Positions 41,800 through 58,934 of a stretch of 64,000 bases of DNA are shown one piece after another. The stretch is from Burkholderiaceae bacterium. GTDB lineage: Bacteria > Pseudomonadota > Gammaproteobacteria > Burkholderiales > Burkholderiaceae_A. The translations under genes were made by a program, and so were the position numbers. Each line of letters opens with the position of its first letter. The first letter of the stretch is position 1. Location: the NCBI GenBank assembly GCA_018882795.1, contig VERJ01000001.1, positions 83,461 through 147,460 on the forward strand, written 5' to 3'. Under the pieces are notes generated by a model. That model saw only the letters and a program-made list of their open reading frames with translations. It did not search any database and was not told the origin of the DNA.

Positions 41800-42207
41800 T
41801 TACCCTTTACCCATGCTCAATGTGCGCAGCATCAACAGCCGCGTGTTGTTCATGAGTTCAATATTCATTTGATAAGAACGCGAGGCCGAGATCATGTTGA
41901 CCATCTCTTCCACCGGGTTCACGTTTGGCATTTCGACATAGCCCTGTGCATCTGCGCGGGGGTGGCCAGGTTTGAATTCTTTGCGCAGCGGCGCGTCGTT
42001 TTCCACGATGTTGGCCACTTCCACACCCGAGCCCGGCGCCCCATCAATCGGCGTCGTGCGAAACACCACCTGGCGGCCGCGGTAAGGACGGCCATCTGGG
42101 CCTTCCAAGGTTTCAGCGTTCGCGATGTTGGATGCAGTGGTGTTCAGACGGATCGACTGGGCCACCAGGCCAGTGGATCCGATTTCAAAGGTGCGCATCA
42201 GGCTCAT
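41800..42207 (-). CDS. flgC: Flagellar basal-body rod protein FlgC
   Basis: FEIGSTGLVAQSIRLNTTASNIANAET; YVEMPNVNPVEEMVNMISASRSYQMNIE. Confidence 0.97.
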   Translation of the reverse strand: MSLMRTFEIGSTGLVAQSIRLNTTASNIANAETLEGPDGRPYRGRQVVFRTTPIDGAPGSGVEVANIVENDAPLRKEFKPGHPRADAQGYVEMPNVNPVEEMVNMISASRSYQMNIELMNNTRLLMLRTLSMGKG

Positions 42208-42217
42208 GGCTTAGTCC

Positions 42218-42639
42218 TTAACCCGGTTGGCCACTGATCGCCTGCAGGCGGGTCTTGATGCTGGAGCCAAAGAATTCAATGGCGGCCTGCATCATCATGA
42301 GTTCTGTGCAAAGTGAACACGCTCGGTATCGGCATCCACGGTGTTGCCATCCAGTGAAGGCTGAATCGGGCGGCGATACAGCAGATTGGGGTCTTCATAT
42401 TCCCCTCCCCCTTGGGTCTCGATGTGGGTGGCGGAAGTCCTGGAGACCGTAAGCCGGGGATTGATCTCAAAACCCTGGAGCCGCTGCTGCAAGACATCCG
42501 AGAACACGATGTCTCGGGCCTTGTAATTCGGGGTGTCCGCATTGGCGATATTCGAGCCGAGAATCTCCTGGCGATAAGCACGCGTCAGGAGCGCTTTCTC
42601 ATGAAAGGCCAGCGTGTCGTATTGAGGAACTAATTTCAT
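42218..42639 (-). pseudogene. flgB: Flagellar basal-body rod protein FlgB, interrupted by a 1-nt frame change near codon 114
   Basis: ORF 42295..42639 ends DGNTVDADTERVHFAQNS*; the -1 frame from 42298 to 42218 encodes MMMQAAIEFFGSSIKTRLQAISGQPG*, the expected FlgB C-terminal helix. Confidence 0.85.
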
Positions 42640-42701
42640 GCAACACCCCTTGCAGTTTTCGGGCCACCCCCACCAGCGGTGGAAATGGGGTTGTCCTTCT
42701 T

Positions 42702-42720
42702 AAAGCAATTGGCGTGCCAA
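42702..42720 (-). promoter_or_regulatory. Sigma54 (RpoN) promoter upstream of flgB
   Basis: Minus strand TTGGCACGCCAATTGCTTT: TGGCACG-N4-TTGCT, GG-N10-GC spacing. Confidence 0.88.
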
Positions 42721-42860: not shown

Positions 42861-44069
42861 CTAGCTGCGGGACTCTTTGATCAGACGGCTATTGGCGGGC
42901 TGAACCGGCCGAGTGTTGTTGGGGTAAAGCCGCGCAAAAATGGCGATCTGATCAGAGGAGACCTCAATCGGTGTCTTCAGGACATACCAGGTGACGCCCT
43001 CGGTGCAAGGCGGGGTGGTGAGTGAACCCATGTAGGTGTAGTAGGACAGTTTGCGTGGCAGAACCTGGCCCAGATTGATCATGAGCTCCGGCGGGGCGAC
43101 CGCCTCATTGCGCACCAGGGGAATGTGATTCCAGATGGATTGAATGAACGGGTTTTCTTTACCCGGAATCGGGCTGAGCAACACAGAGACCGCGGCCAGA
43201 CGGCCTTGGCCATCGCGGAAATGCAGCTGCATGCTCATGCCATGGGTTTTCCCCTCGATGCGCTCCTCTGCAGGATGGCGAAACTCCAGGTGCATCAGCC
43301 GATACGTGTTGCCCAGAACCCTCATGGATGCGCCAGACAGATAGTGCACCTCCAGGGTCTTGCCCGTATCGATCACCTTGAACAGTGAAGGCTTCACATC
43401 GAAAGTGAGCTCTGGCAGATCAACACCGACACCATCACGCAGATCGATTGGTGATTGGAATTGGCCCTTATCGCAAGCCGCATAACGGGCGTGCAGCTTG
43501 CCCCAATTCGCCGGGCCACGATCACCATCGTAGGACCAGGGCACCATGGGCGCAGCCTTGGCTGAACCGGTTCTGGATTCCACAGGTTTTGAAGACGGTA
43601 CGGGCGGAGACGAAGACTTTGCAGGGGCTGCTATGGCGGAAGCCGCATCAACAGAACGAATCACCAGCTCACCACTGCCCTGCATGCGCTCGCGAATGGC
43701 CTGTCGCACGGCCTCATTTGGATCAGCCGGAACAGGCATTGATGTTTTCACTGCCTGCGCACCATTGACGGTTACCGAGATTGGTCCAGACTTGGCCGGG
43801 ACGGCCAGGCCCTGAGCTGGGACATTCTTTGCGGCAGTTGCCGCGGCGGGAGATGTCACAGCCGGGGCCGAGGCTGCCGCCGGGGCAGCCATGGGCGTGG
43901 GTGCGATCGGCGTGATTTGAATCGGATCTGCCTTGGGGAGCGGCGCAGGGTCGCCAGCAAAGGCGAGGCTTGCCAGGGCCAGCAGGGCCAGAGCCGCCAG
44001 GCCACGCGCGGGGCCAGTGTAATCCAGTAATTTTCGGCGATAAACAGTCATGAAGACGCTTCCTCTCAT
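42861..44069 (-). CDS. Alpha-carbonic-anhydrase-fold protein, predicted catalytically inactive
   Basis: WSYDGDRGPANWGKL...QSPIDLRDG...YMGSLTTPPCTEGVTWYVLKTPIEVS alpha-CA signatures; zinc His positions replaced (LEFRHPAEERIEGK...SMQLHF). Confidence 0.85.
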   Translation of the reverse strand: MRGSVFMTVYRRKLLDYTGPARGLAALALLALASLAFAGDPAPLPKADPIQITPIAPTPMAAPAAASAPAVTSPAAATAAKNVPAQGLAVPAKSGPISVTVNGAQAVKTSMPVPADPNEAVRQAIRERMQGSGELVIRSVDAASAIAAPAKSSSPPVPSSKPVESRTGSAKAAPMVPWSYDGDRGPANWGKLHARYAACDKGQFQSPIDLRDGVGVDLPELTFDVKPSLFKVIDTGKTLEVHYLSGASMRVLGNTYRLMHLEFRHPAEERIEGKTHGMSMQLHFRDGQGRLAAVSVLLSPIPGKENPFIQSIWNHIPLVRNEAVAPPELMINLGQVLPRKLSYYTYMGSLTTPPCTEGVTWYVLKTPIEVSSDQIAIFARLYPNNTRPVQPANSRLIKESRS

Positions 44070-57515: not shown

Positions 57516-58934
57516 ATGTCCCACGCCCCTGTCATGATTGTTGAAGACGATGCCGATCTGCGCGAAGCCATTTGCGTCACGCTGGATTTGCATCAGATTG
57601 AATACAGAGCCTTTGGCGATGCCGAAAGCGCACTGATGGCCTTTGATGATCAGGAGTTTTCGCTCACCGTATCGGATTTCAAGCTGCCGGGTATGGATGG
57701 CTTAACGCTGCTGCGTTCCATCCGCAAGAAAGTGCCGCAGCTGCCCGTGGTGATCATGACGGCATTTGCAGAGGCCAAGCTGGCGGTGGAGGCCCTGCAG
57801 ACTGGCGCCAGAGACTTTCTGATCAAACCATTTCAACCCGAACATCTGGTGGGCGTGATTGCGCGGTATCAGCCCACAGTGGATAGCGTGAGCAACGGCA
57901 ACGGCCAATCGATCGTTGCCCGCGCACCCGCAACACTCAGCGTGCTGTCACGCTGCCAGCGGGTTGCTGCCACCACTGCTACTGTATTGCTCACGGGTGA
58001 AAGCGGGGTGGGCAAAGACGTGTTCGCGCGCCAGGTGCATGCCCGCAGTCCTCGTGCCTCAAAACCCTATGTGGCGATCAACTGTGCAGCCATTCCGGAG
58101 ACGCTTTTGGAATCGACCCTGTTTGGTTTTGAAAAAGGCGCATTCACCGGAGCAAATAAGCCCCAGGAGGGCAAGTTTGAAAACGCCCATGGCGGCACAC
58201 TCTTTCTCGATGAAATCGGTGAGCTGCCGATTGAACTTCAGGCAAAACTGCTACGCGTGATCCAGGACCGGGTGGTAGAGCGTATTGGCTCAAACAAATC
58301 CCAAGAGGTGGATGTACGCATCATCGCTGCCACGAACCGGGATCTGTTGGAGCGCGTATCGGCCGGTAAATTCCGCGAGGATTTGTACTACCGATTGGCG
58401 GTCTTCCCCATCGCGATTCCGCCACTGCGTGAGCGCATGGAAGATGTGATCCCCATGGCCGAACTTTTCCTGGAGCGTTACGGACAGACGATGGGGCGGC
58501 CTGGATTAAAACTCTCCGAGCCCGCCAAGGCCGCGATCAATGCCCACCACTGGCCGGGCAATGTCCGCGAACTGGAAAATGCCGTGCAACGGGCGCTGCT
58601 GCTCTCCGACACCGACCTGATCATGCCCGAGGACCTGGAACTGAAGGCCCCGGTAACCGGGGCCGCCGCTTCTGCCGTAAGAACTTCAGGGGACGGACTA
58701 CCGGGTTGGTCCATGGAAGGCGCAGGAGTTGGGGGTGGCGCGGAATTTGCTTCATCTGTAGGGGATCCGACCGCGGATCTGGAAACCGTCGAGCGGGAGC
58801 ACATCCTGCGGGTGCTCAAAGGCACGGGTGGGAACCGGAAAAAAGCGATCGATATCCTGGGAATTTCTGAGCGGGCACTTCGGTACAAGCTCAAGGATTA
58901 CAAGGAAAAAGGCTTTTATTCAGGCAAGGATTAA
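57516..58934 (+). CDS. FleR/FlrC-type sigma54-dependent response regulator
   Basis: Receiver [61 protein letters not shown] (GAFTGA), C-terminal Fis-type HTH. Confidence 0.96.

Follow-up and report, generated by a model that had tools for sequence, protein, structure and literature searches.

Introduction

The proximal rod of the bacterial flagellum contains FlgB as a subunit (PMC7693769), and the terminal helices of flagellar axial proteins such as this form the D0 coiled coil (PMC5288503). Disruption of flagellar genes by small lesions has a precedent in Xanthomonas fuscans, in the genome of which most pseudogenes arise from short indels; the same study reports the loss of flagellar clusters in some strains (PMC3826837).

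In the present study, a broken flgB was investigated in a window of 64,000 nucleotides, which is the whole stretch of DNA that was analysed (positions 83,461 to 147,460 of contig VERJ01000001.1 of a Burkholderiaceae bacterium, assembly GCA_018882795.1). Coordinates given below are those of the window. The assembled sequence does contain the break, which is of an ordinary kind: a recent mutation is probable and an error possible, and a functional split is very unlikely.

The flgB reading frames and flagellar locus

The features at the locus are as follows.

42295..42639, minus strand: first piece of flgB, 114 codons, ending HFAQNS and then TGA; matches Pfam PF00460 and NCBIfam TIGR01396
42218..42298, minus strand: displaced 3′ piece of flgB in the -1 frame, 26 codons and TAA; homologous to the FlgB C-terminus
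42288..42302, minus strand: lesion site, with one nucleotide fewer than 4/4 relatives in a five-genome DNA alignment; located after the AAC codon and before the conserved ATGATGATG
41800..42207, minus strand: flgC, intact, 95-96 % identical to same-genus relatives
42705..42719, minus strand: sigma-54-type -24/-12 promoter-like site TGGCACGCCAATTGC upstream of flgB; a similar site is present in relatives

The first frame, from 42639 to 42295, encodes 114 residues and is closed by the TGA at 42297..42295. The -1 frame, running from 42298 to 42218, encodes the remainder of FlgB, MMMQAAIEFFGSSIKTRLQAISGQPG, in 26 codons before TAA, and the two frames are joined by an ATGA stop-start overlap. The first-pass annotation had described flgB as split by a single-nucleotide frame change, and the coordinates, frames, sequence and overlap are all as it claimed. 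Against TIGR01396 the first piece scores 94.6 bits (curated cut-off 59.05) over profile positions 4-109 of 131; the match stops at position 109, the C-terminal part being out of the first frame and in the -1 frame. There is no homopolymer at the break and no other frame-changing repeat, the sole repeat being three copies of ATG. No second copy of flgB was found in this genome by profile search. The other matches to TIGR01396 are weak and were rejected as extra copies of flgB; they lie in open frames of 269 and 1038 codons at the positions of flgG and flgE.

Directly downstream of flgB are flgC and flgD, as in a flagellar operon, and upstream are a carbonic anhydrase gene and then fliR, fliQ, fliP, fliO, fliN, and fliM. 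Some 80 nt separate the sigma-54-type site from the start of flgB; in 5/5 relatives examined there is a similar site, at 57-79 nt before the gene.

Several other observations were made at this locus. Sigma-54-type promoter-like sites are present on the minus strand at both 42719 (before flgB) and 37912 (before flgF), and a gene for a sigma-54 activator response regulator is at 57516-58934. Another short motif upstream of flgB (42640-42666, minus strand) consists of TGGCCCGAAA..CTGC and then GGGG; it is conserved among the four flagellated members of the genus, at a distance of 27 nt from the start of flgB. The carbonic anhydrase gene between fliR and flgB (42861-44069, minus strand) is of the alpha-type (eukaryotic-type), and relatives from the genus and the family have a homologue in that position. 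Some flagellar proteins are long, including FliD (969 aa) and FlgE (1033 aa) in the window. Elsewhere in this genome, flagellin matches on contig C66 (L273, L274, L275) are in open frames of 1009, 847, and 1395 codons, and in a sister genus FlgE-like frames reach about 1724 codons.

Comparison with relatives

Intact flgB comparators were available from two genomes of the same genus (G003 and G005) and two of the same family (G007 and G011). All four are colinear with the window through the junction, with one extra nucleotide, and have FlgB in a single frame; the break in flgB is therefore a frame-breaking indel, the single gap in an otherwise colinear alignment. The 26 downstream codons, in the -1 frame, align without gaps to the FlgB C-terminus of the four at 80-88 % identity, and this homology begins at the very nucleotide where the first frame ends. 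The reading of the 3′ fragment as the FlgB C-terminus is thus upheld. The intact FlgB of G005 also matches solved FlgB (7bin and others) across the junction.

An extra A had been suggested for the junction. A nucleotide is indeed missing between AAC and the first ATG, yet A is only one possibility, because the relatives carry a different codon at this point; which nucleotide it was is unreadable from the window sequence alone. The base neighbouring the lesion also differs from 4/4 relatives in the DNA alignment.

Whether relatives have the split was a question raised at first-pass annotation, and none (0) shares it. Across 122 fetched loci, some of them duplicated, every FlgB with room to continue has 21-27 residues beyond the junction in frame, except in the window and in L076, a mis-anchored match. 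In a search of 150 genomes of the order, 100 of which have a match, approximately 106 FlgB matches reach at least profile position 123, and the window flgB is the only one ending at 109/131; weaker partial matches (e.g. G132, G166, and G080) sit in longer open frames. Where flgB seems truncated, in G004 and G015, the contig ends, and a split shared with relatives was rejected. The same-genus flgB of G004 runs off the end of its contig, and those of G003 and G005 are complete.

Mutation or consensus error

The assembled sequence has a deletion that is absent from relatives, and the other flagellar genes examined are intact; that the organism itself carries it is what we infer. The best explanation, given a little over an even chance, is a recent, lineage-private, one-nucleotide deletion causing loss of function of flgB. 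The serious alternative, judged to have somewhat less than an even chance, is a sequencing or assembly consensus error, in which flgB is intact in the organism and the draft dropped one nucleotide.

The genome is a 2.03 Mb draft of 85 contigs (99.8 % complete), and that it is a draft, as well as the uniqueness of the split to this one assembly, is consistent with an error. Against this, the site is outside any homopolymer run, the adjacent base has changed as well, and no other convincing frame break was seen in the coding DNA sampled, which covered some 250 partly overlapping gene comparisons (139 genes and 146 kb against the same-genus G001, 55 and 46 kb against G005, 27 and 22 kb against G007, 29 and 25 kb against G011). 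Likewise, rpoB, rpoC, and carB are open in the five genomes checked, except that rpoC of G005 is divided between two contigs. The assembly is therefore not generally noisy. Splits and stops flagged automatically were on inspection stop-to-stop extensions or antisense shadows of neighbouring genes, and were rejected as signs of a noisy assembly; one flagged case, an AI-2E transporter, was checked separately and no convincing break was counted.

Selection data were also compared. The flagellar genes of the window are otherwise open when compared with G007 and G011, and substitutions in most of those compared are mainly synonymous, with flgD and fliO less constrained. There is no acceleration of flgB in comparison with G005 or G003 (dN to G007 0.34 versus 0.38). 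Since purifying selection acts on the other flagellar genes examined, all of them intact, and flgB is unaccelerated, any loss must be very recent. The 3′ piece has kept its frame and a conserved stop, with only 4-5 nonsynonymous differences (dN 0.07-0.09) from same-genus relatives, as expected for either a very recent lesion or an error. This conservation, like the intact and constrained state of the remaining flagellar genes examined, is in keeping with a consensus error; judged from substitutions, a very recent lesion and a one-base error would look alike.

The state of flagellar genes elsewhere in the genus fits the deletion being genuine. In a closed genome of the same genus (G001) there is no match to FlgB, FlhA, FliF, or FlgI, and the same is true of G002 and G006 (~78 % complete). 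In G005 (98 % complete), FlhA and FlgB are present and there is no match to FliF or FlgI. In addition, codon 142 of G005 flgD (L117 1098-1790, minus strand) is an in-frame TGA, against glycine in the aligned relatives, and fliP and flhA of G004 each have a frame break in the assembly (L119 1436-2147, plus strand, and L161 near its end), with non-flagellar controls for G004 amounting to three genes only. With a closed genome lacking the flagellar genes searched for, and two sister assemblies in which flagellar genes are disrupted, the lineage context agrees with loss and with dispensable flagella, although the lesions in the sister assemblies may be assembly errors too.

Stop-start overlap and recoding

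Production of FlgB from the split gene, whether in two chains by termination-reinitiation at the ATGA or in a single chain by -1 frameshifting, is very improbable. The overlap is present and coding sequence is retained in both pieces, as such a gene would require. However, the split is private, being common to no relative, and an overlapping arrangement is not conserved, all comparable relatives having one flgB frame. ATGATGATG is in frame in 4/4 relatives, where it encodes Met-Met-Met, and in a frame shifted by one base it reads TGA TGA, as seen in the shifted frames of 4/4 relatives. Therefore, any single-base loss just upstream of this in-frame Met triplet ends here and leaves an ATGA overlap. 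Because the triplet is ancestral, evolved ATGA coupling was rejected; the overlap and the TGATGA stops are by-products of the conserved Met-Met-Met and not an evolved signal.

Nor are the expected signals present. By eye, no slippery heptamer of the form X XXY YYZ is found at the shift site (G AAC TCA TGA), and G AAC TCA, at the last sense codon, misfits this pattern. The RNA fold around the break is ordinary (z = -0.84 versus shuffles), with no stimulatory structure, and no Shine-Dalgarno-like sequence was seen before the internal ATG. Rated as even less probable is a working rod assembled from two-chain FlgB, in which reinitiation at the overlap would supply the C-terminal helix as a chain of its own. 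Of the three options left at first-pass annotation, assembly error and genuine loss of function are kept; on the evidence of the relatives, a protein made in two pieces or by -1 frameshifting is no longer a serious candidate.

Other bacteria are known to phase-vary their flagella, and the fliP frameshift of G004 sits in a short T run, but a reversible slip turning flagella on and off has a negligible probability here, the flgB site having no homopolymer and slippage among the three ATG copies preserving the frame.

Expected effect on FlgB and the rod

If the deletion is genuine, translation would stop at the TGA after residue 114, giving a FlgB without its last 26 residues. These would make up most of the C-terminal helix, whose expected partner in the rod's D0 core is the N-terminal helix. 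By alignment, the truncated product ends at the residue equivalent to S113 of 138 in solved FlgB 7bin. The break had been placed exactly before this helix, which is not what is predicted: a Gallionella homologue, modelled with low confidence (mean pLDDT 58), has the helix at residues 111-144 and residue 122 as the last before the junction, so that the cut would be approximately 12 residues inside the helix.

Because FlgB is a proximal-rod subunit, assembly of the rod, hook, and filament would be expected to fail, and loss of function with loss of flagellar motility would be the likely phenotype of carrier cells. The 26-codon remainder would be a relic, perhaps translated at a low level via reinitiation at the accidental overlap.

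A genuine deletion would mean that a full-looking set of flagellar genes probably cannot build a flagellum, that motility would be wrongly predicted from gene content, and that an early step of motility loss is seen in a genus with a closed genome already without the flagellar genes searched for. An error would be a warning on single dropped bases in drafts. Either way, the general view of flagellar biology is unchanged.

Comparison with known systems

As in the usual flgBCDE order, flgB in the window is beside flgC. Jointly, the two pieces align over nearly the whole FlgB family (TIGR01396; solved chains 7bin, 7cgo, and others); unlike the family, the window frame breaks at profile position 109/131. 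Programmed -1 frameshifting and ATGA termination-reinitiation resemble flgB in having overlapping frames with a stop-start overlap, whereas flgB is without the X XXY YYZ heptamer, stimulatory structure, and conservation of such systems, and its overlap was accidentally inherited. Flagellar frameshift pseudogenes of lineages that are losing motility, X. fuscans for example, are similar in that a short indel leads to a premature stop in a flagellar gene; here, in contrast, one lesion is seen in the assembled sequence and the cluster is otherwise intact.
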